NCBI RefSeq assembly: GCF_016924755.1
Contig: NZ_JAFFJX010000003.1
Location: 248,001 to 312,000 of the forward strand
Direction: 5' to 3'
Length of the DNA stretch: 64,000 bases
Source: Longitalea arenae
GTDB lineage: Bacteria; Bacteroidota; Bacteroidia; Chitinophagales; Chitinophagaceae
Part shown: positions 30,976 to 60,924 of the stretch, piece after piece
Position numbering within the stretch: the first letter of the stretch is position 1
Layout of the letters: every line of letters starts with the position of its first letter
Notes under the pieces: model-generated
Seen by the model: the letters and a program-made list of their open reading frames with translations, nothing else
What the model was told of the DNA's origin: nothing
Database searches by the model: none
Made by a program: the position numbers and the translations under genes

Positions 30976-31090
30976 ATGGTATAACAAAAGAATTTACGGC
31001 AAGATACTTACATTCGCTGATTCCCGGTCCGGTGGACCTATGTTATCAATGAATATTCCGGAACCGGGAAATACAGAATCGTCTTCACCC

Positions 31091-41307: not shown

Positions 41308-41317
41308 GGCAAGGCAT

Positions 41318-44300
41318 TTAAAATTTAACATTCAAACCCACATTTAAAATGCGCGTTTGCGGATACTGACTGAAGTTGGTTGACGGACTGTTCTCAGCCG
41401 TTGAGAAATTGGCGCGCTCAGGATCACCATTCTTGAAATCGGTCCAGGTGACCAGGTTATCAGCCGACACATACAACATTAGGTCCTTTACTTTCAATCT
41501 CGACATCATGACCCGCGGGAATGTATACGAAAGCGTTACATTCTTTAACCGCAGATAGGATGCATCGCGCAGAAAATAGGTGGAGCCATTGTAATTGTTC
41601 ATGTGCGGATAATCCTTGATGTAAATCGCCGGCATCGACTGGCTTTGGTTTTCCGGTGTCCAGGCATTCCGCCAATCGGTTGTAGGCGGTGTTCCCTGCA
41701 TAAAAGGATCAACGCCCCAGTTAAGTACCCGGCTCTTCACGCCTTGCACGCCCTGGAAGAAAAAGGTAAGACCAAATCCTTTATAGTCGACATTGCCTCC
41801 GAATGAATAGGTATAATCAGGATAAGCGCCTTTTACGATCACCCGGTCATCCGGTGTAATTCTGCCATCGGGTTTTCCCTCAGGACCGCTTACATCTCTC
41901 ATTTTTATATCGCCCGGCATCAGTGTGGTGGTTTGGCTATGCGGAATAGGCGTTTCTCCTTCCTGTACTATGCCATCCCAGAGATACAAATAATAAGAAT
42001 TGTAAGGAGCACCTACCTGAACAGTAGTGGTTCCAAAGCTTGGGATGCGCACTTCCAGCACTTCATTCCTGGCTGTGCTAACGATGCCATTCAGGCCATA
42101 AGAAACCTTACCGATCCTGTTTTGGTGTGTTAAAGACAATTCAATCCCCAAGTTGCGCATTCTGCCATTATTAATGGTAGGTGCATTCATCCCGATACTC
42201 GCAGGGATAAGCGGTGCGGCCAGAATATCGTAGGTGTATTTATTGAACCAGTCAAAAGTGAGGCCGACCAGGCCTTTCTGAATGACGAGGTCAAAACCGA
42301 AGTCAAGCACACGGGTAGATTCCCATTGTAAACTTTTATCGCGGAAAGTGTTGTTCACAGCGCCCTGTACGGCGGGCTGGTTACCGAAAGGATACTGCAC
42401 ATTGCTGATGGTAAGCACATCCTGGTATAAGTAAGTCCCGATATCCTGGTTACCCAGCACACCATAGGAACCTCTTAATTTCAAATCGGTCAACCAATAG
42501 AATTTGTCCTGCAGGAAATTCTCCCGCGAGATCATCCATCCTGCAGATACAGAGGGGAATAAGCCCCAGCGATAATCGGGATGCACTTTCGACGTACCAT
42601 CATAGCGCAGATTACCTTCCAGGAAATACTTGCCCTGAAAATCATAATTCACACGACCAAAGAAAGAGCGCAAGCCCCACTCCTGCGGATTTACATTTCC
42701 GGGAAGCCGCGGATGGCTGAAGTATAAGGATTCATTGGTATTGTTATAACCCGTAAGGTCGGTGAGCGCCTGGGAAACCGTACTGATCCGGCGGCCCCTC
42801 AATCCCTGGTTGCGTTGTGACACCTGTTCATAACCGGCCAGCACCTTGAGGTTATGATCGCCGAACTGGGTATTGTAGGTAAGTGTGCTATAAAGCGTGG
42901 GTTGTAATAATTTTGAGTATTGATCAGTTACCCCAACAATGTCGGGACCAAAAGTCCACATCCGGTAATCACCGGTAGTAGCATCCCGTTCCTGCAGCAA
43001 ATAAGAATTGTAATTGTGCTGATACATTTTATAGTATTCATCCACATAGTTTATGGCTGCTTTTGATGACCATACGAGGTTCTTCATCAATTTAATATCG
43101 ACGAAGACCTGTCCGTTCAGGTTATACTCCTTGTTATTCTGCCAGCCCATTTCATACATTTCCTGCGGGTTGCGGTTCCTGCCTTCTCTTTCATAAGCGC
43201 GGGTAACGATACGGCCGCTGCCATCTGGCAAGAAAGGCCCGTATAAAGGACCTGCCGCATAAACAGCCAGCATCATGTTCTCACCGGTAAAAGGCGGCTC
43301 CTGCCTGTTCTTATAAGTTGCATTAATAATGGTTCCGATCGTGATGGCCTTGGTAAGCTGACTGGTATAATTGATGAGGCCATTATATCTTTTGAAATTA
43401 TAACCTGGCAGCAAAGCATTCTGATCGAGATATGAAAGCGAGATATTAAAAGTATTTTTTTCACTGCCGCCCGACATGGAAAGGTTGTGATTGTGCACCA
43501 ATGCCGGTCTTACATAGTGATCAATATAATTGAAACTGGGATATTCATCAGACGGCGTCCTGTATTTTTCAATTTCCGCCTGGGGATATCGCACCGGCAC
43601 ACCATTGGTTCTGCCCCGGTCGATCGCTGCATTGAACATCTCCATGTACTCAGCGGAGTTGGTGATGAACTCAGGTAAGCGGGTGGCTGAATGCCGTGAG
43701 ATATTGGTACGGTAACTAAACTGCGTGGCGCCCTTTTTACCTTTTTTAGTGGTCACCAGGATAACGCCGTTTGCCGCCCTCGCCCCATAAATAGAAGCTG
43801 AAGCTGCATCTTTTAAGACGGTCGCTGTCTCGATATCATCAGGAGAAAGATTGTTCAATGATCCCGGTACCCCGTCGATCAATACAAGGGGCGCATTGCT
43901 GCCGGTAAAGGAGCTGCGGCCGCGTATCAATAATGAATTACCATCCCTTCCTGGTTCTGCCGTATTTTGATTTACCGTTAAACCAGGTAAACGCCCCTGC
44001 AAGAGGTTAACCGAATTAGGGGCGGGCCGCTCGGTCAACGTATTACCAGTCACCGTGGCAACGGCGCCGGTTACATTCGCGCGCTTCTGCGTACCATAGC
44101 CAATCACCACGACATCTTCAAGCGCCGCCTCAGCAGGTTTTAACCGTACTGATATCGATGTTGAAGTACCGACGTTCACTTCCTGCGTTTCCATACCGGC
44201 ATAAGAAAAAACAAGCACGGTAACACCCGCAGGCATTTCTAAACTAAAGCTACCTGCTTCATTGGTTTGCGTAACTCTTTGTGTGCCTTTGGCAGCAACT

Positions 44301-44464
44301 GTTACGCCTGGCAATGGCTGATCTTTATCATCAGTTACTTTTCCGGTAACAGGAACAGCCTGATAAAAGCCATTGTTATGGTCAAATATTCGATCGCGGG
44401 GAATGGAAAAGACAGGGGAATACGCCAACAGGCTTACCCCGAGGGAAAGCAAAACCAGTTTCAT
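41318..44464 (-). CDS. SusC/RagA TonB-linked outer-membrane transporter
   Basis: The 1048-residue transporter has a Sec signal, a CarboxypepD_reg domain (VTGKVTDDKDQPLPGVTVAA), the VVVIGYGTQKRANVTGAV TonB-box/plug start, a plug (GVPGSLNNLSPDDIETATVL, DAASASIYGARAANGVILVT) and a 22-strand barrel with the C-terminal RILNVGLNVKF. It imports oligosaccharides of the size class handled by SusD at 39766. It is first in its operon, behind a good promoter at 44534-44564. Confidence 0.95.
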   Translation of the reverse strand: MKLVLLSLGVSLLAYSPVFSIPRDRIFDHNNGFYQAVPVTGKVTDDKDQPLPGVTVAAKGTQRVTQTNEAGSFSLEMPAGVTVLVFSYAGMETQEVNVGTSTSISVRLKPAEAALEDVVVIGYGTQKRANVTGAVATVTGNTLTERPAPNSVNLLQGRLPGLTVNQNTAEPGRDGNSLLIRGRSSFTGSNAPLVLIDGVPGSLNNLSPDDIETATVLKDAASASIYGARAANGVILVTTKKGKKGATQFSYRTNISRHSATRLPEFITNSAEYMEMFNAAIDRGRTNGVPVRYPQAEIEKYRTPSDEYPSFNYIDHYVRPALVHNHNLSMSGGSEKNTFNISLSYLDQNALLPGYNFKRYNGLINYTSQLTKAITIGTIINATYKNRQEPPFTGENMMLAVYAAGPLYGPFLPDGSGRIVTRAYEREGRNRNPQEMYEMGWQNNKEYNLNGQVFVDIKLMKNLVWSSKAAINYVDEYYKMYQHNYNSYLLQERDATTGDYRMWTFGPDIVGVTDQYSKLLQPTLYSTLTYNTQFGDHNLKVLAGYEQVSQRNQGLRGRRISTVSQALTDLTGYNNTNESLYFSHPRLPGNVNPQEWGLRSFFGRVNYDFQGKYFLEGNLRYDGTSKVHPDYRWGLFPSVSAGWMISRENFLQDKFYWLTDLKLRGSYGVLGNQDIGTYLYQDVLTISNVQYPFGNQPAVQGAVNNTFRDKSLQWESTRVLDFGFDLVIQKGLVGLTFDWFNKYTYDILAAPLIPASIGMNAPTINNGRMRNLGIELSLTHQNRIGKVSYGLNGIVSTARNEVLEVRIPSFGTTTVQVGAPYNSYYLYLWDGIVQEGETPIPHSQTTTLMPGDIKMRDVSGPEGKPDGRITPDDRVIVKGAYPDYTYSFGGNVDYKGFGLTFFFQGVQGVKSRVLNWGVDPFMQGTPPTTDWRNAWTPENQSQSMPAIYIKDYPHMNNYNGSTYFLRDASYLRLKNVTLSYTFPRVMMSRLKVKDLMLYVSADNLVTWTDFKNGDPERANFSTAENSPSTNFSQYPQTRILNVGLNVKF

Positions 44465-44533
44465 ACGTTGCAATCGTTTAGATTAATAAATGACTAGGAT
44501 ACGTAGGGATCGCCGGAAGAATAGTTGTGTATC

Positions 44534-44783: not shown

Positions 44784-46127
44784 CTAGGTCAGCTCCTTCA
44801 CCCCATCCACCTGCTTATTAATTCCGAGCACCGTATCGTTCTCTTCCGGCTTTTTGTCAGCCACCGGCCTTTTGCGCCAGTAATTGGCTAAAATAGAACC
44901 GGCGATATTCATCCATGGACTGAAGACAGCTGCTGGTAAACCCAGGGTACCTAATTTTCCCATGCCTGCCGCAATACCGGAAGCCATGCCTGCATTTTGC
45001 AGGCCCACTTCAAATGCCACTGTACGGGCAGAATTTTTATCCAGCCGGAACAAACGGCCTAACCAGTATCCAAAAAAGAAACCGGCCGCATTATGTATGA
45101 CAGAACAAAGAAATAATAACCACCCTGTTTTTAATAAATTGTCGTGCCCGGCTGCAGTGGTGACAGTAGTAAAATAAATGATCCCGAACATGGAAAAATA
45201 AGGCATGATCCTGTCGAGCCCGGTAAATGTTTTTGCCAACAGGTGATATAACACACCTGCAACGATGGCGCCCAGCAGGAAACCAAAAATTTCCAAAGAT
45301 TGAAGCAGTGGTGTTGAACCAATATGCGTTGCCAGATAATTCCACGAGCCTAATGGCAATGCCGTCAGCCACAAAGCAGCAAAGATGAACATCAAAGTTA
45401 CCAGCCGCACGCCCCGGGGTGAAGCGCCTTTCAGGAAGTCGTGCAAGAGGGCTGCGCCGATGGGTACGATAACGATCTTGATAATCTCCATCATCATGTG
45501 AAGCACTTTCACTTCTACCAGGGTACCGGCCAGCAGTTTCATCAACAAGGGGGTGAAAAAAGGGGCTGCCATCGTAGCCATGGCCGTAACCACTACCGAC
45601 AATACGAGATTGGCCCTTGCCAGATACACCATTACGTTAGAAGCCAGCCCACTCGATGTAGAACCAATGAGAATGATACCGGCTGCTATCTCCGGTTCAA
45701 AGTGAAAAATGCGTGTAAGCAAAAACCCCATCAGCGGCATCACGGAGAAATGACATAATAAACCAATGGCCACTCCCTTGCCGGTCCTTGATACCGCCGT
45801 AAAATCTTCCAGTTTCATTTGTATGCCCATACCGAACATCACCAGCTGGATGATGACCAGCATTAACCATTTATTCCGCAGATCGATCGATCCCCAATTG
45901 GTAAAAGAAGCAGGATACATCATACCGGCTACCACGGCAGCAATGATCCAGCTTGTATATTGATATCCCTTTAATGACGGTATCGCTCCTAAACCGATGG
46001 CCATACATACAGCAGTACCTACGGCCGCCGGCCTATATAAGACCGGCTGCTGCATAATGATTCCGATCAGCAAAACAATGAATGCTGCAATACCGATCAC
46101 CAGGAACAGTTGGGAGATCTTTTTCAT
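44784..46127 (-). CDS. Bile acid:Na+ symporter (BASS/SBF) family transporter
   Basis: The 447-residue membrane protein has about ten hydrophobic segments in the SBF fold, with GMGIQMKLEDF, GSTSSGLASNVMVYLARANL and the Na+-site-like FEVGLQNAGMASGIAAGMG. Such carriers bring in organic acids by Na+ symport. The N-terminal two helices and a polar C-tail make it longer than the about 320-residue core. It is last in the run with the racemase-like protein, DUF1537 kinase and RuBisCO-like protein, so an acid-sugar substrate is inferred. ATG at 46127 chosen over a GTG three codons upstream. Confidence 0.88.
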   Translation of the reverse strand: MKKISQLFLVIGIAAFIVLLIGIIMQQPVLYRPAAVGTAVCMAIGLGAIPSLKGYQYTSWIIAAVVAGMMYPASFTNWGSIDLRNKWLMLVIIQLVMFGMGIQMKLEDFTAVSRTGKGVAIGLLCHFSVMPLMGFLLTRIFHFEPEIAAGIILIGSTSSGLASNVMVYLARANLVLSVVVTAMATMAAPFFTPLLMKLLAGTLVEVKVLHMMMEIIKIVIVPIGAALLHDFLKGASPRGVRLVTLMFIFAALWLTALPLGSWNYLATHIGSTPLLQSLEIFGFLLGAIVAGVLYHLLAKTFTGLDRIMPYFSMFGIIYFTTVTTAAGHDNLLKTGWLLFLCSVIHNAAGFFFGYWLGRLFRLDKNSARTVAFEVGLQNAGMASGIAAGMGKLGTLGLPAAVFSPWMNIAGSILANYWRKRPVADKKPEENDTVLGINKQVDGVKELT

Positions 46128-46135
46128 ATGGAACA

Positions 46136-46225
46136 CAAGGTTACATGTTTCAATTTACAGGCTACAAGGGCAGGTACGGGCATTTCCCTGTAACCTGAAA
46201 CCCTGCAGCCTGCAACTACTAAATA
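46136..46225. repeat. CAGGTTACAGG-type inverted repeat
   Basis: Left words TTACATGTTTCAATTTACAG and GGCTACAAGGG, right words CCCTGTAACCTGAAACC and CTGCAGCCTGCAAC. The arms pair around GGTACGGGCATTT. It lies between the racemase-like gene and the BASS gene. Confidence 0.65.
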
Positions 46226-46258
46226 AGAATAATATAGCTCCTTTATTAGTTTAAGCCA

Positions 46259-46918
46259 TTAAAGAACGGATGCGATATGTTGAACGGCAATACCCGGACT
46301 AGCCAGAATAGGCACTTTCTTATCTTCCGGAGCAAGGTTATCAGCTACCCGCGCCATAGAGGCCTGCGCCAGTACGATCACATCGGTTCTGGCAGATAAT
46401 TCACGCAACGCCTTTGCTACCATGGCATCGTGTTTTTCTGCATCACCGCTCATCAATGCGTCAAAAGCGCCTTCGCACAATACGGCTTCCAGTTCTATGG
46501 ATTTACCCGCTACGGCCGCCCTGCGTTGTACCAGGTCACTGGTCGGTTGCAGGGTGGTTGACAAAGTAGCGATAACACCAATACGTTTCCCCGTGCGCAC
46601 TGCCTGATCTGCCATCGGCTGATCAACCCGTAACACAGGCACATTGGTCAAGGCAGCGGCTGCTTCTACAGCAGCTCCGATAGAAGAACAGGTTACCAGG
46701 ATGAAATCGGCGCCTGCCGCTTCTGCAGATCCCACATAATTTACCACCCGCCGTGCCGTACCAGGTGTTAGTTCGCCACAAGCGATCGTATTTTTAATGA
46801 GACTGTCGTCAACAATGTTGAATACTTTTACCTGGGGTAAAAACTGACTGCACAATTGCTGGAACATAGGCACCAGGGTGGCTGATGTATGAATAAGCCC
46901 TAATGTTTTTTGTTGCAT
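46259..46918 (-). CDS. Asp/Glu/hydantoin racemase-family protein lacking the second catalytic Cys
   Basis: The 219-residue protein has the two-domain racemase fold. The first catalytic Cys is present (Cys77 in ILVTCSSIGAAVE). The place of the second, usually CxGM/C-T-H-like, reads VLAQASMAR (residues 182-190) with no Cys. Family members with one Cys can be decarboxylases or isomerases, so the name racemase is not safe. It is between a DUF1537 kinase gene and a transporter gene in the RuBisCO-like protein cluster, so it probably acts on an acid sugar or its breakdown product. Confidence 0.8.
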   Translation of the reverse strand: MQQKTLGLIHTSATLVPMFQQLCSQFLPQVKVFNIVDDSLIKNTIACGELTPGTARRVVNYVGSAEAAGADFILVTCSSIGAAVEAAAALTNVPVLRVDQPMADQAVRTGKRIGVIATLSTTLQPTSDLVQRRAAVAGKSIELEAVLCEGAFDALMSGDAEKHDAMVAKALRELSARTDVIVLAQASMARVADNLAPEDKKVPILASPGIAVQHIASVL

Positions 46919-46948
46919 GTTTATTCTGTTTACTTCTTTACAGTTAAA

Positions 46949-48286
46949 TTAATCGATCCTTCCTTTCATCAATACTTCAAAATAATTGTCGCCCCCTACC
47001 TGTCCACCTTTGAAATTCACTTCCAATCCATGTACCGGCGATCCCGGCGCAGTGGCCTTACACAATGGCGCACCGGGTACCAGGGCTGCGATCATTTCTA
47101 CCGCTTCAATACCCATTGCCCTTGCTGCATAACTGCTGGTATCGCCACCGGCGATCACGAGCCGTTTTACGGTTGAACCAGCTGCTGCTTCCCTGGCGAT
47201 CTTACCTAATGCCGTACCTAATAAAGCAGCGGGCAGATTGGCAGTTTGTTGTTGCGCAGCGCCACCAGTATGAACAATGACATGTTTTCCGTTATTCAAA
47301 CAGGCAAGGGCTTTACGGATAGATGTATCAACAGAAAGATCATCGTTATTACAGATCGCAGCTGCGTCGATCAGGATCTCTTCAAATCCTGCTGCTATGG
47401 CATATCTGATTTGTGCGGCCGTCACCGGCGAACAGCTTCCGGCAACCACCAGTAATGGTGCTGCTGTTCCGGGATCTTGCCAGGACCTAACGGGCTGCAA
47501 TATGTTGGTATGGTTCCAGTATTGTCCCAATGCCATTTCAATGCCTGATGATCCTACAGAGAACAAAGTACCTGCCCGGGCCTGTGCATCGATCAATTCA
47601 CCGATGCGCAACAATTGCTCCTGGTACAATGCATCCACTAATACGATCTCAAAACCAGCCTGCACCTGGTGTTCCCATTCCCTGTTGATGGCTTCGGCAG
47701 AAGCAGATACCTGGAGGATATCGACCAGTCCGGTCTTCTTACTGGTTTGCTTTGACAAATGCAGGCGCAGGTCGCTTTCATCGGCCGGAGTAACCGGATG
47801 ACGGCTCATCGATGGATGCCGGTCGAGCCGGTAGATATTCCCATTGCTGCCAATGCCCATACGCGCAAACAGATTGCCGAATAAGCAGTAGCGGCCTAAG
47901 ACCGGAGCAGCCACCAGCAAGGGTATTGCCCTGTTCTTAAACACTGCAGCGCCGGTATCAATGGCTTTACCGATACTTCCTATTGCAGGGGAAGAATCGA
48001 ACGTGGAACATACTTTATAATGCACATGACGGGCGCCTGTTTGCTGTAATTTTTCAAATGCAGGCAACAGGGTTTCTTCCATGGCTGCAGGCGACATTGC
48101 GCGGGTTTTACCGGCAACGCCAAAAGCGTTCAAACCCGGATACTTTTTCAATAACTCCACCGTGGGTGGCTCAATGAATAAGGCCGTCCTCGCCCCTGCC
48201 CTGCTTAGGAATTCCAAAGCATCGGTGGAACCGGTGAAGTCGTCGCCGTAGAAGGCTAGTAATATATTACTTTGTTTGTAAGACAT
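46949..48286 (-). CDS. Four-carbon acid sugar kinase family protein (DUF1537), OiaK-like by context
   Basis: The 445-residue kinase has the DUF1537 N-terminal domain start FYGDDFTGSTDALEFL (substrate and phosphate site), HYKVCSTFDSSPAIGSIGK and a C-terminal nucleotide-binding domain with VIAGGDTSSYAARAMGIEAV and PVHGLEVNFKGGQVGG. The family phosphorylates acid sugars such as threonate, erythronate and 3-oxo-isoapionate. It sits one repeat tract downstream of the RuBisCO-like gene. In the D-apionate pathway a DUF1537 kinase makes the substrate of such a protein, so OiaK function is proposed, not proven. Confidence 0.85.
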   Translation of the reverse strand: MSYKQSNILLAFYGDDFTGSTDALEFLSRAGARTALFIEPPTVELLKKYPGLNAFGVAGKTRAMSPAAMEETLLPAFEKLQQTGARHVHYKVCSTFDSSPAIGSIGKAIDTGAAVFKNRAIPLLVAAPVLGRYCLFGNLFARMGIGSNGNIYRLDRHPSMSRHPVTPADESDLRLHLSKQTSKKTGLVDILQVSASAEAINREWEHQVQAGFEIVLVDALYQEQLLRIGELIDAQARAGTLFSVGSSGIEMALGQYWNHTNILQPVRSWQDPGTAAPLLVVAGSCSPVTAAQIRYAIAAGFEEILIDAAAICNNDDLSVDTSIRKALACLNNGKHVIVHTGGAAQQQTANLPAALLGTALGKIAREAAAGSTVKRLVIAGGDTSSYAARAMGIEAVEMIAALVPGAPLCKATAPGSPVHGLEVNFKGGQVGGDNYFEVLMKGRID

Positions 48287-48321
48287 TCGGGTCAATGGAT
48301 ATAATCATTGTTAATGATCCT

Positions 48322-48440
48322 TGTTACCGGTCACCGGTTACCGGTTTCCAGGACCTTACTGTGCGTTTGTTAAAGTTTTTGGTGGTTGCCCGGCAACTGG
48401 TAACTGGCAACTGGTAACTGGTAACTGGTAACTGGTAACT
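48322..48440. repeat. Quasi-palindromic GGTTACC/GGTAACT repeat tract
   Basis: The left arm has TTACCGGTCACCGGTTACCGG, and the right arm (48385-48440) has about seven CTGGTAA/CTGGCAA words in the opposite sense. The about 35-bp loop starts GGACCTTACTGTGCG, somewhat like the loop of 23257-23372. It separates the RuBisCO-like gene from the DUF1537 gene. Confidence 0.85.
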
Positions 48441-49683
48441 ATTTCTTACCAAACTGCTTCACTGACTCGCCGAACTCTTTGTAAGCGGCCGCCGCCTGCT
48501 CCACACTCAAACCATCCACCGCGGCCTGCCATGCCTGTTGCAAAGCTCTTACGCCGGCTGCAGCGCCCATGGGATGCGCCATGATGCCGCCGCCGGCCAT
48601 ATACAAGAGGTCAACGGTTTTTGTACGGCGATACGTTTCTGGCGCTTGTCCGCCCCATTGCCCCGACGATACTACCGGCAATAAAGGCTGGTGATCGTAG
48701 AATGGCTGCAGACATGCTTTGATAGATGCCACCACAGAGTCATCGCTTTCCCAGAATTTATTCTGGATACCATTTACATGCAGCTGGTCAACACCTGCTA
48801 CCCGCCATAATTTTTGATAAGCCCTGAAATCGATCCCGAGCAATGGATGACGGGTTTGCATTCCCCAGCCATTGCGGTGTGCATGAATAGCCAGTTGCCG
48901 CTGATCGCAGATCTTTTTAACACCCGCCATTCCCACACTGTTGATACTTACCATGGCGCAGGTACCGCCACTGCGCAGAATATATTCATAGCGTTGCAGC
49001 ATCTCGTCAATTTCACCGCTGATATTGAATGCATACATTACTTTTTTCCCGGTAGCATCGGCATGTGTATTGATCACTTTCATGATCGCATCTACCCGGT
49101 CATTGAAGCGCGAATTGGCCGATGAAGAGAGCAGCTCATCATCTTTTATAAAATCAATGCCTGCACCCACCAGCGTTTTCACCATCTCAGCGGTTTGTTC
49201 GGGCGTGAGGCCGATACTGGGTTTAATGATGGTGCCGATCAACGGCCTGTTTTCAACCTTGGTAAGCTTTCGGCAACCATCGATACCAAATGCCGGTCCC
49301 TTGTAGTGTTGCGCAAAAGATGCCGGCAGCCCGATATCCATGAGTTTCAAACCAGTGAACTGGCGCAGCTCATACAAATTCCCCTGCAGGGTAGAAATGA
49401 GTACCGGCAGGTTATAACCGAAATTTTCGATACTCCAGGAGACCTGGATCTCCGCGCGATGGTATTGCCCCGTTTTGCTGCTGGCCCCGGGCATGGCTGG
49501 TTCGGACACTGTTTCCAGGGGCGTCACTTTTTCAACCCGGGCGGCAAAACGCTGTTTCAATTCTTCCGTTTCACCAGGCACGGCAATAAAGGTTCCCGAC
49601 GATTGTTCGCCTGCCAATACAGCCGCTGCCTTTTCCGGGTCTAAAGGAGTTTCAATATAATATGTTGCTGTAATTCTGTCCAT
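48439..49683 (-). CDS. RuBisCO-like protein (form IV), candidate 3-oxo-isoapionate-4-phosphate transcarboxylase/hydrolase or decarboxylase
   Basis: The 414-residue protein has the RuBisCO large-subunit N-domain (1-140) and TIM barrel. Active-site equivalents: Lys154 (TIIKP, RuBisCO K175), Lys180-Asp181-Asp182-Glu183 (FIKDDE, carbamate Lys and Mg ligands), His269-Arg270 (HAHR), His302 (DQLHVNG), Lys309 (NKFW) and the phosphate loop AGGGIMAHPMG. Ser156 replaces RuBisCO K177, so CO2 fixation is not expected. Two RuBisCO-like enzymes are known in D-apionate catabolism, one hydrolytic and one decarboxylating; the kinase neighbour supports that use. There are no methionine-salvage genes nearby, which argues against an MtnW role. 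Confidence 0.88.
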   Translation of the reverse strand: MDRITATYYIETPLDPEKAAAVLAGEQSSGTFIAVPGETEELKQRFAARVEKVTPLETVSEPAMPGASSKTGQYHRAEIQVSWSIENFGYNLPVLISTLQGNLYELRQFTGLKLMDIGLPASFAQHYKGPAFGIDGCRKLTKVENRPLIGTIIKPSIGLTPEQTAEMVKTLVGAGIDFIKDDELLSSSANSRFNDRVDAIMKVINTHADATGKKVMYAFNISGEIDEMLQRYEYILRSGGTCAMVSINSVGMAGVKKICDQRQLAIHAHRNGWGMQTRHPLLGIDFRAYQKLWRVAGVDQLHVNGIQNKFWESDDSVVASIKACLQPFYDHQPLLPVVSSGQWGGQAPETYRRTKTVDLLYMAGGGIMAHPMGAAAGVRALQQAWQAAVDGLSVEQAAAAYKEFGESVKQFGKK

Positions 49684-49721
49684 ACTTCTTTTTTTAGTTC
49701 TTAAGGTATTCTGTTCATAAG

Positions 49722-49772
49722 CTATTAGTTAACTCAATGACTGAACCTGATAACTCAATAACTGAATAACTC
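49722..49772. repeat. 8-bp word tract (AACTCAAT/AACTGAAT)
   Basis: About five AACTCAATGACTGAAC/AACTGAATAACT words between GH78 and the RuBisCO-like gene, of the same family as 44710-44770. Confidence 0.7.
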
Positions 49773-51987
49773 ATAAACCCTTATATTTTACTTCATACTG
49801 TTTACCCGCTTCCACCGTCATCTCATACAGGTTATTCCCCTTGCTGGTAATAACGGCACCCTTAGCGGTTGGTTTGCCCTTACTCTTAAAACGCAGGGTT
49901 CCCGTTCCTTCGCTGCTTTTGATCTTAATTACCGTAGTGCTGCAATACACATCGATGTCACCCTTCGGCGTAGGCACTTTACCTTCCATCCATTGCAAAC
50001 CTCCCAGTACCGGCTCCGCTACCCAGCTTGCATAACCTGGTGCTGTGGGCTGAACACCCAAATAGTATTTACCCAGGAGATAGATCGGACTGGCGCCCCA
50101 GGCATGACAAAGGCTTTTGCCAAACGGACGGCCATACATCGCGTAATGTTCAGCACCCTGCTTGGAAGGATTGTATTCTTCCCAGAAAGAAGTGGCGCCT
50201 GCCTGCAACATGCCGCCCCAGTAATTTTTCATTTCATTCAGCACGTATTTCTGTTCACCCATAGCACACAAGGCTTCCAGTTCATAGAACCGCATGTAAG
50301 GCGTGGTGATCTTCTGGATCTTTTCGTTTAACAGCACATGCTCTTTTACCGCCTGCTTCTGTTCATTATTAAAATAATCAAAAAAGATAGCGAACATGTT
50401 GGCATAGCGGGTTACATTGTCGGTAGGTTTGCCATCAACCCGGCTATGCACCAGCGCGTGCTTTTCATCGCTCCAGTAGATAGCGAATAATTTTGCTTTC
50501 AGATCGGCCGCCAGTTGTTTATACAGCTCCGCATTTTTTGTATCGTTCACCATATTGGCACAAAGCGCCATGGTTTCGAGGCTGCGGCAGAACAATAATT
50601 GTTCAAAGCTCACTTCTCCTTTTTTACTTAACCCTGCTGCCCAGTCGATGAATATCCAGTCCCCTGGCAGCCCCTGCATCAGTCCGTCTTTATTGCGGCG
50701 TTGCAGGCAATAGTCCATGAGGCTTTGCATACGCGGATAGAATTGCTGGATAAAGGTCTTATCGCCGGTATACTGGTAGAGATCATAGATACCGAGGAAC
50801 CAGTAAAAAGTATAATCCATAATGGTATTGATGTGACTGGTCACCGGGTCTTTTCCCCGCAGGGCCATCAGCGTGCGTGATACGGTAGGCACATCGAAAT
50901 ACAGGTAGTAGTTCATCAGGTAGCTTTGGTAAGCATCCCCACTCCAGATCCAGCGGTCGCGTTTGATACCATCGATGAAGAACTCGCGGGTATTCAATTC
51001 CATGGTGTAGGCGGCTACATCCCAAATTTTATTGATAGATTCATCTGCGCAACGGAAAGTGCCGCGTTTGGCCACCGGCAGGTATTCATATAACATCGAA
51101 ACCGAGTCAAGCGCAGCACCGCCTTCTGTTTGAATATTCACAAAGCGGAATGCTTTGGATAATTCCATTACAGAATCTTTTTTTGATCCCAGGTTCACTT
51201 CCACCCGATCGAGTGTTTCGCAGGTACCGGTAGCCAGGGCTTCTTCTTTGGATTCGCCATAATACAACGACACTTTGCCGTTGCCCTGTAAACCATGCAG
51301 GCGGATATAGCCAAATGTTTCCTGGCCAAAATCAACCAGTAAAGAGCCGTTGTTCCTGGTTGCGGATACCGCTGATTTCGGTTGTACGGCCAGTTTAAAT
51401 GCAGAGGGCCGTTGTGCGGGATCGTTGAAATTCCAGCTGCCCGCATTTAACCATACAGTCGCCGAAATGTCGGATGTTTTGCCGGTTTCATCGATCCACT
51501 CTTTATCTTCAAAGGTTACCAGCCAGGAGGAATCGGATCTGATCGTTTTTCCTTTCACATAAATAGCCGGCACATTGCCCGTGCTGAACACTTTTACATT
51601 GATGCGGTGTTTACCGGCAGGAACTGTTATTTGTTGCGGCGTTCCTTCAAAACCTTTTCCGTCGAGTTTCAGGATATATTGCCCTTCCACGTATACATCG
51701 ATCTGTTCGGGCTCGGTCAGCTCTACATCTTTGTGAAAATCCATCAGCACATAATGACCATCCAATTTCCAGAATGGTGGAAAGAAGGAACCGCGCTCTG
51801 TACGCCGGTTCTGCATTTTATTGGCCAGCCAGATCTCAAAATCACCTGGATACCAGATCCAGGTCGCTTCTCCGGCAGCTGCCTTTTGCGGCTCTACTGT
51901 GCGGGCAGGTTGCGCCGGCACAGCGCCGGTCGAAAGTAATAGTGCGATCAAAAGTGCCTGTTGCAATATGGCGTGTTTGCAATTCAT
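49771..51987 (-). CDS. GH78 alpha-L-rhamnosidase-like protein
   Basis: The 738-residue exported protein (signal to about VPAQ) has N-terminal beta-sandwiches with TWIWYPGDFEIW, LLVDFGQETFGYIRLHG and RFVNIQTEGG. An (alpha/alpha)6 catalytic domain follows with the GH78 motif DGIKRDRWIWSGD and ATSFWEEYNP (the general-base Glu region), then a C-terminal beta domain. It should remove alpha-L-rhamnose. It is immediately downstream of the SSS symporter gene at 52015 (27 bp), so it is in the same transcription unit. Confidence 0.9.
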   Translation of the reverse strand: MNCKHAILQQALLIALLLSTGAVPAQPARTVEPQKAAAGEATWIWYPGDFEIWLANKMQNRRTERGSFFPPFWKLDGHYVLMDFHKDVELTEPEQIDVYVEGQYILKLDGKGFEGTPQQITVPAGKHRINVKVFSTGNVPAIYVKGKTIRSDSSWLVTFEDKEWIDETGKTSDISATVWLNAGSWNFNDPAQRPSAFKLAVQPKSAVSATRNNGSLLVDFGQETFGYIRLHGLQGNGKVSLYYGESKEEALATGTCETLDRVEVNLGSKKDSVMELSKAFRFVNIQTEGGAALDSVSMLYEYLPVAKRGTFRCADESINKIWDVAAYTMELNTREFFIDGIKRDRWIWSGDAYQSYLMNYYLYFDVPTVSRTLMALRGKDPVTSHINTIMDYTFYWFLGIYDLYQYTGDKTFIQQFYPRMQSLMDYCLQRRNKDGLMQGLPGDWIFIDWAAGLSKKGEVSFEQLLFCRSLETMALCANMVNDTKNAELYKQLAADLKAKLFAIYWSDEKHALVHSRVDGKPTDNVTRYANMFAIFFDYFNNEQKQAVKEHVLLNEKIQKITTPYMRFYELEALCAMGEQKYVLNEMKNYWGGMLQAGATSFWEEYNPSKQGAEHYAMYGRPFGKSLCHAWGASPIYLLGKYYLGVQPTAPGYASWVAEPVLGGLQWMEGKVPTPKGDIDVYCSTTVIKIKSSEGTGTLRFKSKGKPTAKGAVITSKGNNLYEMTVEAGKQYEVKYKGL

Positions 51988-52014: not shown

Positions 52015-53595
52015 TTAATGTCCGTTAAAAAATATATACAATGCCAGCATGACTACGATCAGTAGTCCCCACATAAACCATACCTGCTTATCGGTTTTGG
52101 CCAGGCTTTTAAAGTAAGTGGCCTCTTGTATCTGTTTGGCGCCTTTTTTATCAAATACCGATATTAAATAGGTCATTACACTTAATACCACAAAGAGGTA
52201 GAACGACAACAAGAGGAAATGCGGCCATTTGTCTGATTTTATCACCCACAAATTCAGGATCCCCACCAATAAACAAAATGCAGTACCAACTGTCAATACA
52301 TAATTGATGGCTTTAGGCGTTGTCTTTTTCCAAAGGACACCAAACAGGAAGGCGACTGTCATTGGCGGGGCCAGAAAACCCAGGACCGATTGAAATACAT
52401 TGAACAGGTCGAGTCCTTTTATATTATCAATAGCAAGTGTAACCGAGACCGATACCAATGCGCCGGCCACCGTGATCAGGCGGCCAATGCGAATGATGTC
52501 CTGGTTGCTGGCTTCGGGTTTGTATTTCTTCACGTAAATGTCCATGGTGAATACGGTGCTCACCGAATTCAGCGAAGCGCCAATAGTACTTATCAAACAG
52601 GCTACCAGCACTACAATGATCAAGCCTTTCATACCTGGCGGGAACAAATTGGTCACCATCGTCAGGTAGGCTTTATCAGGATCCTGCAGCTGCGGATATA
52701 AGATGAAACAGATAATGCCAGGAAGAATGAACAGGGGCACATCCAGGATCTTCAACCAGCCAATAAAATTGGCGCCCAGCTGTCCCTGCTTCAGGCTTTT
52801 GGCGCCCAGGACCGATTGCACCATCGATTGTTCCGTACACCAGAACCATACGCCCATGATCGGGTAGCCGAGCAGGATAGCCGGCCAGGGAAATACTTTA
52901 TCACTGGCAGGCTGGAACAGGTTCCAGAAATTGGCGGGCGTCTTTTCATAAATAGCGGCGATACCGCCTGCTTTCGACACCCCGAGCACCACCAGGATCA
53001 ATGATACCACGATCAATAATAACATCTGGAATACACTCGTGTAGGCGATGGTCTTTAAACCACCTGCCAATACAAACAGCGTAGAGACCACCACCATGAT
53101 CATAACGGATAACAACATATCCATTCCCAACAGTTGCTTAATAAGCACGCCACCGGCAAATAAGCCGAGTGACAACCAGGAGATCAAAATGGTGATCAGG
53201 GTATACCAGGCCAGGATATTGCGGGTATTTTCGCCAAACCGTTTACCCAAAAACTCAGGCAGGGTGGATACATTGGCGCCCAGGTAACGGGGGCCGAATA
53301 CCACGGCCAGCATAAGTATGAAAACAAATGCATACCAGGCAAAATTGCCCGCCACAATACCGGTTTGATATCCGGCACTGGCAGATGCCACCAGCATGGA
53401 TGGACCTACATTGGTGCCCCACATGGTAAAGCCGATACTCGCCCAACCCAATGAGCGGTCGGCCAGGAAAAGGTTCTGCTCCCTGTTCTTCTTTTGTCCG
53501 AAGCTTACCCAATATCCGATTGCGATCAGGATGAAAAGGTAAATGCCTACAATGACAAAATCGACAGGTTGTAAAAGGTCATAGATGGCGTTCAT
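52015..53595 (-). CDS. Sodium/solute symporter (SSS, SGLT-like)
   Basis: The 526-residue protein has the SSS fold with 13-14 membrane segments, starting IGYWVSFGQKKNREQNLFLA, with GASLNSVSTVFTMDIYVKKY (typical of SGLT-type sugar carriers) and WCTEQSMVQSVLGAKSLKQG. It takes up a sugar or sugar acid with Na+. Its place directly before the GH78 gene suggests rhamnose or a related product, but this is an inference. Confidence 0.9.
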   Translation of the reverse strand: MNAIYDLLQPVDFVIVGIYLFILIAIGYWVSFGQKKNREQNLFLADRSLGWASIGFTMWGTNVGPSMLVASASAGYQTGIVAGNFAWYAFVFILMLAVVFGPRYLGANVSTLPEFLGKRFGENTRNILAWYTLITILISWLSLGLFAGGVLIKQLLGMDMLLSVMIMVVVSTLFVLAGGLKTIAYTSVFQMLLLIVVSLILVVLGVSKAGGIAAIYEKTPANFWNLFQPASDKVFPWPAILLGYPIMGVWFWCTEQSMVQSVLGAKSLKQGQLGANFIGWLKILDVPLFILPGIICFILYPQLQDPDKAYLTMVTNLFPPGMKGLIIVVLVACLISTIGASLNSVSTVFTMDIYVKKYKPEASNQDIIRIGRLITVAGALVSVSVTLAIDNIKGLDLFNVFQSVLGFLAPPMTVAFLFGVLWKKTTPKAINYVLTVGTAFCLLVGILNLWVIKSDKWPHFLLLSFYLFVVLSVMTYLISVFDKKGAKQIQEATYFKSLAKTDKQVWFMWGLLIVVMLALYIFFNGH

Positions 53596-53662: not shown

Positions 53663-53757
53663 CCGGTTACCGGTTACCAGTTACCACCACTTACCAGGGA
53701 CGCGGCCTCCGCTGTGATTCCCGGGAACCGGTGACTGGCGACGGGTAACTGGCAACT
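53663..53757. repeat. Quasi-palindromic GGTTACC repeat, core in reverse sense (CGCGGCCTCC)
   Basis: The left arm CCGGTTACCGGTTACCAG plus TTACC and the right arm GGGAACCGGTGACTGGCGAC plus GGGTAACTGGCAACT enclose CGCGGCCTCC (53701-53710), the reverse complement of the GGAGGCCGCG core. It lies between the oxidoreductase gene and the SSS gene. Confidence 0.85.
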
Positions 53758-54820
53758 ATAGACCATGTGCACTTAAGATTTCACTCACTTTCACCGGCAC
53801 ACCTGTCTTCAAGGATCTCTCCATCGCCTGCAATAAGGCAATGGTGCCGATACCTTCTTTCAGATCAGGATATGCTATTGTATTATTGGTAATGCTGTCG
53901 GCAAAATATTCCAGGTAATTCTGGTATTCACCGGCATGATGGCTCTGGCCTTCAAAACGGAAATAATATTTGATGGTACTATCGCCCCAATGAACTACTT
54001 TTTCTTCGCCGGTCCTATCGGTGATGGCATAACGCAGTTCGTGATAGTCGGCCTGGGAGGCGCCCTCGGTGCCCCGCAGGATCACGCTCATGCCGCTATC
54101 TCTTTGTGCCGGCTGAATAGGCCCGGTATAAGCGCCGCTTACCCGCGCGATGCGGCCATCTGCAGCCCGGAAGATAAAGTGCATGGTATCTTCGTTTTTC
54201 AATCCCGCTTTTTTTCCGTTGCTGCTGATCATCCCATACCCCATCACTTCTTCAATCTCAGGCAGGTACCAACGGATAAAATCAACCGGATGGCTTAAAC
54301 CTCCATAGAGCCATTTGAATGAATGCTCCAAAGCCCATGGCTTTTCTAAAAACCAGCGATGATCGGCATGGTAATGGCTTTCCACGGTGATCAGCTCACC
54401 TAACAAACCAGCTTCAAAGTCCCTGCGCTGCCTTTTGGCCGGCTCAAAGAACCGGGAGCTTTGGCCTACAAACAATTTCTTTCCGGTCTTTTGCTGCAGG
54501 TCAAGCAGTTCTTTGGCAGTCGACAGGTCATCTATCAGGGGTTTCGTACATACCACATGTTTATTGTGCAGCAATGCCTGTTTGATATGCCCGGCATGCC
54601 ATTTGTCGGGTGTATAAATAGCAATGATATCGATCTCCGGATCATTTAGCATGTCTTCATACTTCGTCGTATAATTAAAGAACTGAAATTCCTTGCTCCG
54701 CTGTTTGCACAGGTCTTCGTTCAGGTCGCAAATGGTTTTCAGTTTCAGTTTGCTGCTGCTCAGGGCGGCAGACATGGTGCTGCGACCTTCGCCTAATCCT
54801 AGTATGCCTATCGTTAACAT
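53756..54820 (-). CDS. Gfo/Idh/MocA family NAD(P)-dependent oxidoreductase
   Basis: The 354-residue protein has an N-terminal Rossmann fold (GILGLGEGRSTMSAAL), the Lys-Pro catalytic loop VVCTKPLIDDL (variant of EKP) and a C-terminal beta-sheet domain (ALEHSFKWLYGGLSHPVDFI). There is no signal peptide. It would oxidise a sugar or sugar acid. It lies between a beta-helix protein gene and an SSS symporter gene in the catabolic cluster. Confidence 0.9.
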   Translation of the reverse strand: MLTIGILGLGEGRSTMSAALSSSKLKLKTICDLNEDLCKQRSKEFQFFNYTTKYEDMLNDPEIDIIAIYTPDKWHAGHIKQALLHNKHVVCTKPLIDDLSTAKELLDLQQKTGKKLFVGQSSRFFEPAKRQRRDFEAGLLGELITVESHYHADHRWFLEKPWALEHSFKWLYGGLSHPVDFIRWYLPEIEEVMGYGMISSNGKKAGLKNEDTMHFIFRAADGRIARVSGAYTGPIQPAQRDSGMSVILRGTEGASQADYHELRYAITDRTGEEKVVHWGDSTIKYYFRFEGQSHHAGEYQNYLEYFADSITNNTIAYPDLKEGIGTIALLQAMERSLKTGVPVKVSEILSAHGL

Positions 54821-54948: not shown

Positions 54949-56829
54949 TTATTTTATATTTTTAATTGCCTTATACGCATCTTCCAGCCCCGCCCTGTTC
55001 TTAATACTATCCGCCACTTTCGGCCCATTGTTATCCCACGTATTACCGGGACCGTTGGAGTTCTTCATAAACTTCTCTTCCTCGCAATAATTATCCTTCA
55101 GCGTGATATAGGCAGAACCTTCATCGAGGTACATGTAAAAGAAATGGTTGGGATCATGGGCATAAGGCGCTTTCAGGATCGTATGCACATAATTCTCACT
55201 GATCACAGAACCAGGTTGGGCCGACAATGTATATAAACCGCCCACATCGTACATATGCTTTGCATAGTGATGCACCAGGTTGGCGTGTACGCGGTTATTC
55301 CGCATGGCATTGATGGTTTTCGTCCAGCCCCAGCCTACGCAAATGCCGCTGTAGGGAAGATCGCTCAATTCATTGTGTTCAATGTTAATGCCCTGTACAT
55401 AACCAGCACTGATACCCACACAACCCCAGTCTTCATTAGCGCAGTTGGTAATAAAACAATTGCTGATGGTGAGCTTGCGGCATAATTCCCTCGCATCGGC
55501 CGGATCATACGGCAAATGCGTCTCAAACGCCGGGTCGGAGAATACGCCGGCCTGAATAGCAGTGCCGCCAATATCACGGAAAGTGCAACCAATAATGGTA
55601 TCGTATTGGGTACCTCGTATATAATCCAATCCGGTAGCGGCCATGTGTGAGAAATTACAACGCTCGAAACCCGTGTTCCGCACATATTGCAATTCAACAG
55701 CTGCAGGCTGACGGCCGATCCAGCCTTGGTTTTCCAAACCTCTTTTATCTGGTGTACCGGGTATTTTCAACTTGTACGCATCCAGCAAATACATACCTGC
55801 CTGTAAGGGTACATGCCCTGCCTGTGAAGGCCTTAACCAGGTGGTATATTTGAAATCGATGCCTTTGAAAAATACATGGGCAACAGGATTGTCAATAGTT
55901 CCTTCTACGCGGGCGATATTCTGTAAATAAGGGACTGTTACCTGGACGCTGCGCAGGTCTTCATTATTGCGCGGCCAGTAAACGATCTGTTGTTGTTTCA
56001 CATCGAGGTACCATTCACCAGGCTCGTCGAGGAACTGAATGGCATTGGTGAGAAAGAAAGCCGAGTTGCCCGTCTTCTGCGAGATCCAGGGAGCCGGCCA
56101 GGGATGTTCCGACTGAATGCGGCTTTCCGGCTGATGAAAACCAAGCAGTGCGCTGTCACCTTTAACCGTAACCGATTTAATGCGTAAGATGGCAATGGCC
56201 CACCATTGGTGAATGACCATTTCCAAACCGGCCACCTTATCCCAACCCGGCGTTTTTGGCGCCGGGATCCAGCATTGTTCCGTTTGATGGTTCCAGGAAA
56301 GAATACGGTTCATGCTATCGGCATTACGATCGCGGGCCCGAGTGGCTTTTTGATCGTTTATGTATAACTGGCGGAAATCGAGCAGGCGGCCTGCTTCCAC
56401 CGGTGCATCCGCTACCCATACTTTGCCCTGCGCTGCAGCCGGCAGTCCGGGCATTTTTCCCGAAGCTTTGCGCCAGCCTTTGACTGACATACCACCGCTG
56501 AACACCGGCCTGGCGCCGGGGGCTGCTTCGATGATGGTAGGGCTGCCGGGCGTACCGGAATCTTCGGGGCGAATAAACAATGGTTCGCTGAAAGTATATA
56601 CGCCGTCGCCGACAATGATGTGAATACCGTTTTCAACCGCCGGGTCTTTCAAGCGGCGCATTTCCCTGGCCTTACGCAATGCCATGGCAACGGTGGCCAT
56701 GGGTTTATCTTTTGTACCAGGGTTCGTATCTGAACCAGTAGGCGCTACATAAATATCAGCGGCCTGAACCGTTATATGGAAACAGGCAAATAATAGAAAT
56801 AAAAGCGCGTAATTGAATAGAGTCTTCAT
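54949..56829 (-). CDS. Secreted right-handed parallel beta-helix protein
   Basis: The 626-residue protein starts MKTLFNYALLFLLFACFHI (signal, cleavage after VQA). The ATG at 56829 is used because the 66-codon extension upstream reads antisense through the neighbouring gene from a GTG. After IYVAPTGSDTNPGTKDKP (a DUF1565-like opening common in exported beta-helix proteins) come repeated beta-helix turns (NCFITNCANEDWGCVGIS, NIEHNELSDLPYSGICVGW). Such proteins are polysaccharide lyases, epimerases or glycosidases; no catalytic set was identified. It is probably part of the polymer-degrading group. Confidence 0.85.
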   Translation of the reverse strand: MKTLFNYALLFLLFACFHITVQAADIYVAPTGSDTNPGTKDKPMATVAMALRKAREMRRLKDPAVENGIHIIVGDGVYTFSEPLFIRPEDSGTPGSPTIIEAAPGARPVFSGGMSVKGWRKASGKMPGLPAAAQGKVWVADAPVEAGRLLDFRQLYINDQKATRARDRNADSMNRILSWNHQTEQCWIPAPKTPGWDKVAGLEMVIHQWWAIAILRIKSVTVKGDSALLGFHQPESRIQSEHPWPAPWISQKTGNSAFFLTNAIQFLDEPGEWYLDVKQQQIVYWPRNNEDLRSVQVTVPYLQNIARVEGTIDNPVAHVFFKGIDFKYTTWLRPSQAGHVPLQAGMYLLDAYKLKIPGTPDKRGLENQGWIGRQPAAVELQYVRNTGFERCNFSHMAATGLDYIRGTQYDTIIGCTFRDIGGTAIQAGVFSDPAFETHLPYDPADARELCRKLTISNCFITNCANEDWGCVGISAGYVQGINIEHNELSDLPYSGICVGWGWTKTINAMRNNRVHANLVHHYAKHMYDVGGLYTLSAQPGSVISENYVHTILKAPYAHDPNHFFYMYLDEGSAYITLKDNYCEEEKFMKNSNGPGNTWDNNGPKVADSIKNRAGLEDAYKAIKNIK

Positions 56830-56855
56830 TTTGTTCTTATAAATAGATGATCCTG

Positions 56856-57743
56856 CTATTGAAATATCGATTTCATGTAAGCGGTATTGGCACCGAAATT
56901 CTTTTTTACGTTCCGCGGGTCCTTCGCATCGCGTGACCGCTCGATCACCAGCCAGCCCTTCCAGTTCATTTTCTCCAGGGTCTGTTTTACTTTCTTCATA
57001 TCTATCTGCGGATCGTTCTGCAGCCACACACTGTCCTTATTGGTGCAATGGATCTGGCAGATGCGATCTTTTCCGAGTATTTCCAGTTCTTTATACAGGT
57101 CTCTTCCCTCTTTTAAGGGATTTGAAAAATTGAAATAGATCTGGATCGCGGGAGAACCGATCTCCTGTAACAGTTTTACCTCTTCCGTAGCGCTTAAGGC
57201 GGTCTCGATACCAATGACCACGCCCGCTGCTTCCGCAGCCTTTCCTACTTCTTTCAGGCGTTCTATAACGGCCGGACGTAATTCCGGGTATTTTACCAGG
57301 TCGCCTTTGATACCTAATGGCAGAAAGCCCACTTTTACATTCATCTGCTTCATGGTATTGATGCAATCCTGCACTGCCTTTACAGCGGTAGGCCGTTCCG
57401 GAAATGATTGCGCGTAAAAACCGGTCATACCGAGAGAGGCAATTTCCAGGTTCAATTCTTTGGCCTTATCCATGAACTGCTTGCGTACCGAATCAATCGC
57501 CAGTTTATTATCGAAGGTCTCGCGTTGCCCCAAACCGCCCATATCCAGTTCCAATCCATCAGCGCCAATGTCTTTGGTCAATTGCAAAGCCCCCAGCTTT
57601 TGACGTTTCAGGATCATCAGGTCAACCACTGCAATTTTATAGAGCTTGCCTTCGTTCTTAGTGTGCGTTTGCCTTGCAGTACTGGCACAGCCGGCCGCTA
57701 TACTCATTAATACTGCTACTGCGAATATTCTTTGCTTTTTCAT
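56856..57743 (-). CDS. Exported lipoprotein with sugar-isomerase TIM-barrel (AP endonuclease 2-like)
   Basis: The 295-residue protein has a lipoprotein signal (MKKQRIFAVAVLMSIAAGC). The xylose-isomerase-like TIM-barrel core shows DGLELDMGGLG, GVVIGIETALSATEE, IQIYFNFSNPLKEG, ICQIHCTNKDSVW and WLVIERSRD. Metal-binding Glu, His and Asp are plausible in the ETAL, IHCT and ERSRD positions. The fold is usually cytoplasmic; here it appears membrane-anchored in the envelope. Possible roles are isomerase, epimerase or hydrolase of a released sugar. Confidence 0.85.
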   Translation of the reverse strand: MKKQRIFAVAVLMSIAAGCASTARQTHTKNEGKLYKIAVVDLMILKRQKLGALQLTKDIGADGLELDMGGLGQRETFDNKLAIDSVRKQFMDKAKELNLEIASLGMTGFYAQSFPERPTAVKAVQDCINTMKQMNVKVGFLPLGIKGDLVKYPELRPAVIERLKEVGKAAEAAGVVIGIETALSATEEVKLLQEIGSPAIQIYFNFSNPLKEGRDLYKELEILGKDRICQIHCTNKDSVWLQNDPQIDMKKVKQTLEKMNWKGWLVIERSRDAKDPRNVKKNFGANTAYMKSIFQ

Positions 57744-60895: not shown

Positions 60896-60924
60896 ATGGC
60901 AATAGATAAAAAAAAACAATCTGA

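Follow-up and report, generated by a model that had tools for sequence, protein, structure and literature searches.

A RuBisCO-Like Protein Cassette in a Predicted Rhamnogalacturonan-II Utilisation Locus of Longitalea arenae Probably Serves the Breakdown of Aceric Acid

In the genome of Longitalea arenae (7.28 Mb, 99.98% complete), a stretch of 64,000 nucleotides (contig NZ_JAFFJX010000003.1, positions 248,001 to 312,000; called the window below, with coordinates counted from its first letter) carries four neighbouring minus-strand genes for a RuBisCO-like protein (RLP), a DUF1537 acid-sugar kinase (KIN), a protein of the Asp/Glu racemase family (RAC) and a BASS-type sodium symporter. These four proteins probably constitute a self-contained cassette for aceric acid, released by the GH127 aceric acid hydrolase encoded in the same locus. 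Aceric acid is 3-C-carboxy-5-deoxy-L-xylose, a structure given in an excerpt of PMC5698469 that also names BT_1003 as aceric acid hydrolase. This rare branched plant sugar was discovered in rhamnogalacturonan-II (RG-II), the most complex plant pectin. The abstract of PMC12168206 calls RG-II essential and highly conserved in plant cell walls. None of the open-access titles and abstract openings listed deals with what becomes of free aceric acid, a weak negative since the subscription literature lies mostly outside them, and the breakdown route of this sugar appears to be undescribed.

The proposal builds on gene content, gene order, co-occurrence, the predicted fold of RAC and active-site residues, all of which were observed. 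The RLP (414 amino acids; 48439..49683) matched PF00016 (230 bits) and PF02788 (33.1 bits) over the curated cut-offs and has the carbamate lysine and the metal ligands, in agreement with membership of the RuBisCO superfamily. It is followed by KIN (46949..48295; PF07005, 196.5 bits; PF17042, 106.2 bits), a member of the DUF1537 four-carbon acid sugar kinases by both domains, by RAC (46259..46918; PF01177, 91.5 bits) and by the BASS symporter (44784..46136; PF01758, 105 bits). The aceric acid hydrolase gene (34165..36186, minus strand) lies further along the same gene run, and its product scored 1152.8 bits with model NF049879 (cut-off 950), the next-best protein of this genome among the matches listed reaching 470.5 bits. 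Because this hydrolase stands in the same gene run and a BT_1020-like protein is encoded about 11 kb past the window end, the locus is, on gene content, a predicted RG-II utilisation locus. An earlier note on this DNA, made from the sequence alone, had placed the open reading frames (ORFs) of the RLP, the DUF1537 kinase, the racemase-like protein, the BASS carrier and a GH78 enzyme correctly, all on the minus strand, and had rightly linked them to pectin-type side chains, although its interval, 44784..51987, leaves out the hydrolase gene at 34165-36186.

The distribution of the cassette was examined in 244 genomes of the family and in 395 genomes drawn from the phylum, with 26 distinct RLP genomes over both draws (3 of the 8 RLP genomes of the phylum draw are also in the family draw). 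In the family draw the RLP was present in 21 genomes and the hydrolase, over its cut-off, in 41, and all 21 were among the 41 (Fisher p 2.4e-19). Counted by genus, all 16 RLP genera were among the 23 hydrolase genera of 101 (p 1.5e-13), and in the phylum draw all 8 RLP genomes were among the 20 with the hydrolase (p 9.2e-12); there the RLPs of this clade scored at least 491 bits and the next score was 225. The matches to the two genes lie within 143 bp of each other in 13 of the 26 RLP genomes, within 15 kb in four more and within 60 kb in another five, and the hydrolase falls within the examined stretch in 15 of the 21 family loci. The order RLP, kinase, RAC, BASS was kept in 21/21 family loci, with small extra ORFs in between in three, and since it recurs in all of them the four-gene arrangement is not a product of chance. 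RAC was found in 26/26 RLP genomes versus 0/31 hydrolase-positive genomes without RLP, and a BT_1020-like protein in all 57 hydrolase-positive genomes examined. The recurrence of these genes in other Bacteroidota, on which the earlier note had made its reading depend, was borne out, and its guess that the pathway includes the racemase-like protein and the BASS carrier was a good one.

A further set of 80 named RLP loci was examined; seven of them hold an RLP already present in the genome draws, so that the sets were not summed. By ORF calling the RLP was found in 77 of these loci, the kinase in 76, BASS in 72 and RAC in 71; a tblastn search of 12 loci added the RLP in three (80/80), RAC in four and BASS in two, one of them cut by a contig end. 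With a purpose-built hidden Markov model and an author-set threshold of 800 bits, the hydrolase was detected in the examined stretch in 38 loci, in 26 of them as the ORF next to the RLP. These loci are mostly of Bacteroidota, with some Verrucomicrobiota (L186, L192, L209) among those that have the hydrolase in the stretch. In L143, L153 and L211 a hydrolase piece or a weaker match was located at the contig or stretch edge. Among the named loci, the closest RLP was that of Niastella sp. OAS944 (92% identity). A Croceibacterium plasmid (L094:10175-14525), considered as an independent case of GH127, RLP and kinase, was not counted, its GH127 protein reaching only 87 bits on the hydrolase model; neither RAC nor BASS is annotated in the L094 stretch.

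In the alignment of the core RLP clade (104 rows, or 97 distinct proteins, seven rows duplicating a protein present in two collections), Lys154, Ser156, Lys180, Asp182, Glu183, His302 and Lys309 were identical in all rows. The earlier note had read these residues correctly, including the FIKDDE motif and the replacement of the second lysine of the KPK motif by serine. In RuBisCO numbering, the equivalents of E60, N123, K175, K201, D203, E204, H294, H327 and K334 were kept in every core row, with one gap at E60. The position of Lys177 was occupied by Ser156 in 104/104 rows, so that the RLP lacks the complete lysine pair (K175 and K177) of the carboxylating RuBisCO forms I–III. In the OiaX clade D, G and Q were found at E60, N123 and H327 in 8/8 rows; in window numbering the OiaX-clade letters are D26, G102, K184, D274 and Q302, and those of the core rows E, N, L, G and H. 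Trp311, in the loop after Lys309, was common to core and OiaX rows and was also present in L238 and L239.

The best NCBIfam model for the RLP was that of OiaX (NF042437), with 526 bits against a cut-off of 700; the OiaX of Rhizobium johnstonii scored 780 bits with the same model, and the mean identity between RLP and OiaX was about 47%. No genome of either draw contained a protein over the OiaX cut-off (0/244 in the family, 0/395 in the phylum). An identity with MtnW was set aside by model score (TIGR03332, 135.9 versus 513.6 bits; PRK09549, 180.5 versus 409 bits). In trees whose supports were read after re-rooting, the core clade was set apart from OiaX with FastTree support of 0.79-0.86 (104 core rows) and with IQ-TREE SH-aLRT/UFBoot values of 72/91 (24 core rows) and 82/95 (20 core rows), the OiaX clade being separate at 100/100 and 99.9/100. 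One wrong-frame row (photo_L110) was present in two FastTree trees, in one of which it was placed beside OiaX, and excluded from both IQ-TREE runs; without it the core and OiaX clades were unchanged. An acid-sugar pathway of the RLP and DUF1537 kinase type, as read in the earlier note, is supported, and the tree placement for which that note had called goes against a position inside the OiaX clade of enzymes for 3-oxo-isoapionate 4-phosphate.

For KIN the best model was OiaK (NF042436), with 394 bits and a cut-off of 700. The kinase encoded beside the Rhizobium OiaX, to which KIN is 43% identical, was likewise under that cut-off (477 bits), which makes the cut-off poorly discriminating. The BASS carrier did not reach any of the narrower NCBIfam carrier models. 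RAC belongs to the Asp/Glu racemase family by PF01177 and by its predicted fold (mean pLDDT 95.9). Its putative catalytic Cys77 was invariant and two other cysteines (23 and 148) were common. Ala186, invariant in 56/56 sequences, aligned by eye with the second catalytic cysteine of the aspartate racemase 1jfl, to which RAC is 16% identical, and RAC does not have the pair of catalytic cysteines of the two-cysteine racemases. The designation "one-Cys" in the earlier note was accordingly right for the catalytic pair.

The substrate, every reaction and the products of the pathway are what we infer from these observations, the role of RAC by elimination. Aceric acid, an organic anion, would be imported together with sodium by the BASS carrier. 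RAC would then shift a proton with a single base and so isomerise the aldose to the 2-ketose, whose C1 would carry a primary hydroxyl and whose keto group would adjoin the carboxylate-bearing carbon. KIN would phosphorylate the C1 hydroxyl of this keto-aceric acid, the methyl homologue of 3-oxo-isoapionate. The RLP would act on the resulting keto-aceric acid 1-phosphate, HOOC-C(OH)(CHOH-CH3)-CO-CH2-OPO3. By chemical reasoning this compound is 2-hydroxy-2-(1-hydroxyethyl)-3-oxo-4-phosphooxybutanoate, and the OiaX substrate has a hydroxymethyl group at the place of the hydroxyethyl. To our knowledge, aceric acid is the only RG-II sugar that is a branched carboxy sugar with a ketose of the OiaX-substrate skeleton. 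Carter et al. reportedly described two reactions of this class in 2018. One is decarboxylation; the other is transcarboxylation coupled to hydrolysis, which gives 3-phosphoglycerate and glycolate and which, on a substrate with one more methyl group, would yield 3-phosphoglycerate and L-lactate.

Since the RLP keeps RuBisCO residues that are lost in OiaX, carboxylate transfer with hydrolysis is moderately favoured over simple decarboxylation, given that the substrate is the right one. If the RLP were a plain decarboxylase of the same substrate, the products would be 5-deoxy-L-pentulose 1-phosphate and CO2, and the former would be split by rhamnulose-1-phosphate aldolase into dihydroxyacetone phosphate and acetaldehyde. 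We regard this variant as rather unlikely. In its favour, OiaX, a decarboxylase by name, is sister to the core clade in the FastTree trees (0.98-0.997) and in one IQ-TREE run (98.2/100), core and OiaX rows have Trp311 in common, and a rhamnulose-1-phosphate aldolase/dehydrogenase over the cut-off is encoded in the same genome. The other IQ-TREE run, which included additional outside rows, gave the sister branch 84.1/52 and did not settle it. The OiaX rows are without the equivalents of E60, N123 and H327 that the core clade keeps, and the only aldolases that recur beside the cassette in the 21 family loci are of the DHDPS type and belong to the second gene module described below. Moreover, RLPs outside OiaX that keep E, N and H adjoin genes for pyruvate kinase and/or enolase in 3/14 plasmid loci, as would be expected for enzymes making 3-phosphoglycerate, while triose-phosphate isomerase and RpiB genes occur in 1/7 annotated OiaX loci; as evidence for the product, this lower-glycolysis neighbourhood is thin. 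An unlikelier possibility than decarboxylation is that the cassette serves another acid that co-occurs with RG-II use, either an RG-II acid modified beforehand by the Gfo/Idh protein or an unrelated plant acid. In two family loci (G018, G157) the cassette is isolated and distant from the hydrolase gene, pairs of RLP and kinase are found elsewhere beside TRAP or ABC importers, and 20 of the 41 hydrolase-positive family genomes are without the cassette; against this, the hydrolase is encoded in every one of the 26 RLP genomes and is the adjacent ORF in the 26 named loci mentioned above.

The least probable of the alternatives, and one that we consider improbable, is the route that the earlier note had favoured, a Bacteroidota D-apionate pathway in which the RLP, similar to OiaX or to a transcarboxylase/hydrolase, would act on 3-oxo-isoapionate 4-phosphate from the apiose of RG-II. 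Apiose is present in RG-II, OiaX (526 bits) and OiaK (394 bits) are the best models of the two proteins, with the mean identity to OiaX given above, and the same active-site letters are found in RLPs from Roseibium, Phyllobacterium, Shinella and Paraburkholderia whose loci are, to judge from annotation and gene position, of the apionate type. The E/N/H versus D/G/Q difference was for that last reason rejected as evidence against apionate, and it speaks at most to the type of reaction. D-Apionate as the substrate was set aside on the absence of ApnL and ApnO, the model cut-offs and the trees, in which the RLP falls outside the OiaX clade, and on the tie to the aceric acid hydrolase. The lactonase ApnL (NF049900) was found in 0/21 RLP-bearing family genomes, and so was ApnO, searched with a single Rhizobium johnstonii protein which we take to be ApnO from its gene place; the control record was matched in both cases, and a very different oxidoisomerase is still conceivable. 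Between the local Gfo/Idh protein and the one encoded next to ApnL in Rhizobium, identity is 20% across 206 residues. A D-apionate route would leave no role for RAC, and apiose may be served by a route of its own in such genomes. In 2 of the 21 family loci (G077, G172) the cassette adjoins genes for an ABC importer of the sugar type, transketolase halves and an FGGY kinase, both halves standing beside it in G172 with an isomerase-like gene, and in Dyadobacter (L173) its neighbours encode an FGGY kinase and a protein with an apiosidase domain. The set of ABC importer, FGGY kinase and split transketolase is presumably the make-up of the non-oxidative apiose route. Of the 26 RLP genomes, 15, that of the window included, have a transketolase half at least 67% identical to that of G172; in the other 11 none was found at this level.

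Several points weigh against an aceric acid cassette. In 4/26 RLP genomes the hydrolase is 717 kb away (G018) or on another contig (G077, G157, G161), and in 42 of the 80 named loci it is below the 800-bit threshold in the stretch. The Cytophagales bin L141 has hydrolase and RLP, with no kinase, RAC or BASS in the examined stretch, and Flectobacillus L149 has no kinase in its stretch; the remaining gaps of the cassette in the named loci are contig ends. The RLP is absent from 20 of the 41 hydrolase-positive family genomes, and is thus dispensable for RG-II users. Since clustered genes are inherited as a unit, the counts are not those of independent events. We know of no enzyme of the Asp/Glu racemase fold that is an aldose-ketose isomerase, and the activities of all the cassette proteins are predictions from sequence. 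As a separate observation on L149 and L141, a large secreted-looking protein is encoded behind the RLP in the kinase's place (L149:11348-13195, L141:11257-13095), the one in L149 being BT_1020-like (PF24067).

Between 34 and 64 kb, the large genes of the window are encoded on the minus strand. Read downwards from 64 kb, the run comprises an aldolase, PdxA, a second DUF1537 kinase, an SSF symporter, an esterase-like protein, a PF01261 protein, GH141, Gfo/Idh, a further SSF symporter, GH78, RLP, KIN, RAC, BASS, SusC, SusD, GH106 and GH127. Between the cassette and the hydrolase stand genes for a SusC-like TonB-dependent importer (41318..44473; TIGR04056, 861.7 bits), a SusD-like lipoprotein (39766..41331) and a GH106 alpha-L-rhamnosidase (36217..39687; PF17132, 561 bits). 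On the other side of the RLP are encoded a GH78-type alpha-L-rhamnosidase-like protein (49771..51987; PF21209, 287.7 bits; PF17389, 111.6 bits; 17/21 family loci), an SSF sodium:solute symporter (52015..53595; 16/21), a Gfo/Idh/MocA oxidoreductase (53756..54820; 16/21) and a GH141-type protein (54949..57027; 16/21), whose long start overlaps the next ORF and whose true start is probably internal. They are followed by a sugar isomerase/epimerase-like TIM barrel of PF01261 (56856..57743; 9/21) and a glucuronyl/acetyl-xylan-esterase-like hydrolase (57805..59193; 13/21). The Gfo/Idh, SSF, GH78 and GH141 proteins were rejected as parts of the pathway, being present in only 16-17 of the 21 family loci.

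The remainder of the run forms a second module with an SSF symporter (SSF2, 59312..60952), a second DUF1537 kinase (KIN2, 60925..62082), a PdxA-family dehydrogenase (62082..63128; TIGR00557, 336 bits, over the cut-off) and a DHDPS-family aldolase (63130..64000; 307 amino acids in full, its 5' end lying past the window end), all minus-strand, and with an Fe-dependent alcohol dehydrogenase upstream of the aldolase, past the window end (L092:56-1204). For KIN2 the best model was D-threonate kinase (121 bits, cut-off 450), and the PdxA protein scored 373 bits as PdxA (PRK03743) and 315 bits as D-threonate 4-phosphate dehydrogenase (PRK03371), both below cut-off. The five genes are contiguous in 5/21 family loci (G000, G003, G150, G172, G213), and the module directly follows the cassette in the Verrucomicrobia bin L185. 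A match to KIN2 was found in 17/26 RLP genomes versus 1/31 hydrolase-positive genomes without RLP, at identities of 36-100% that need not all represent the same enzyme. The predicted functions of this module would fit the breakdown of the RG-II acid Dha via D-threonate.

Other genes were observed near cassettes. A DUF5703 protein of 796 amino acids (31040-33430, plus strand) recurs near the cassette in 14/21 family loci. Just beyond the window end, L092:1457-5248 encodes a 1264-residue fusion of a GH78-type rhamnosidase and a BNR_2 domain, whereas G004, G087 and G172 encode a BNR_2 protein on its own, close to SSF2 or to the esterase. The protein of L081:7190-8404 and its relatives (cluster c17; 8/21 family loci) matched the first 362 of 1400 positions of a "beta-D-glucuronidase/beta-L-arabinofuranosidase" model with 520 bits (cut-off 1800). 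In the cassette neighbourhoods of Paradesertivirga and Rufibacter (L154:1129-2746, L093:1-562), a Gfo/Idh gene is adjacent to one for a MaoC-like dehydratase, with a permease or RhaT gene nearby. Further pairs of RLP and DUF1537 kinase, one from a haloarchaeon and others accompanied by TRAP carriers, VOC proteins, pyruvate kinase or enolase (L096, L097, L225, L234, L238, L239), perhaps belong to more RLP-dependent acid-sugar pathways.

If the aceric acid cassette is as proposed, four proteins would carry this sugar from outside the cell to glycolysis, RuBisCO-like proteins would gain a new substrate tied to complete RG-II use, and the Asp/Glu racemase fold would gain a role in sugar isomerisation. 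There would then be a reason why some RG-II users (21/41 family genomes) carry the cassette and others do not, and the cassette could mark those Bacteroidota and Verrucomicrobiota of soil and plants that use RG-II completely. The full combination, with a first catabolic route for aceric acid, RAC as a one-cysteine aldose-ketose isomerase, the RLP as a transcarboxylase/hydrolase forming 3-phosphoglycerate and L-lactate, and the second module clearing Dha via D-threonate, is put forward tentatively, and that every part of it is right is possible rather than likely.

Among known systems, the Bacteroides RG-II loci with BT_1003 and BT_1020 have the aceric acid hydrolase and BT_1020-like proteins in common with the window locus. 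A Bacteroides ihuae control was matched by the hydrolase model (its status at the cut-off being unspecified) and the BT_1020 model, and gave no RuBisCO-family match. The RLPs of L224, L233, L235 and L236 have the same letters as the core clade at E60, N123, K175, K201, D203, E204, H294, H327 and K334, but stand outside it. Annotation and gene position point to ApnO-, ApsD- or ApnL-type genes in their loci, and the stretches examined contain neither aceric acid hydrolase nor RAC or BASS. These RLPs possibly represent the 3-oxo-isoapionate-4-phosphate transcarboxylase/hydrolase that Carter et al. reportedly described in 2018. From the D-apionate pathway of Proteobacteria (ApsD, ApnL, ApnO, OiaK and OiaX; Rhizobium johnstonii pRL12, L095), also present in strain LCG007 according to an excerpt of PMC11747546, the window cassette differs by RAC and BASS, by the tie to the hydrolase, and by the clade and active-site letters of its RLP. 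The two systems have the adjacency of RLP and DUF1537 kinase in common, and would share a 2-hydroxy-2-alkyl-3-oxo acid 4-phosphate as the class of RLP substrate and a branched sugar of the plant cell wall as its source.

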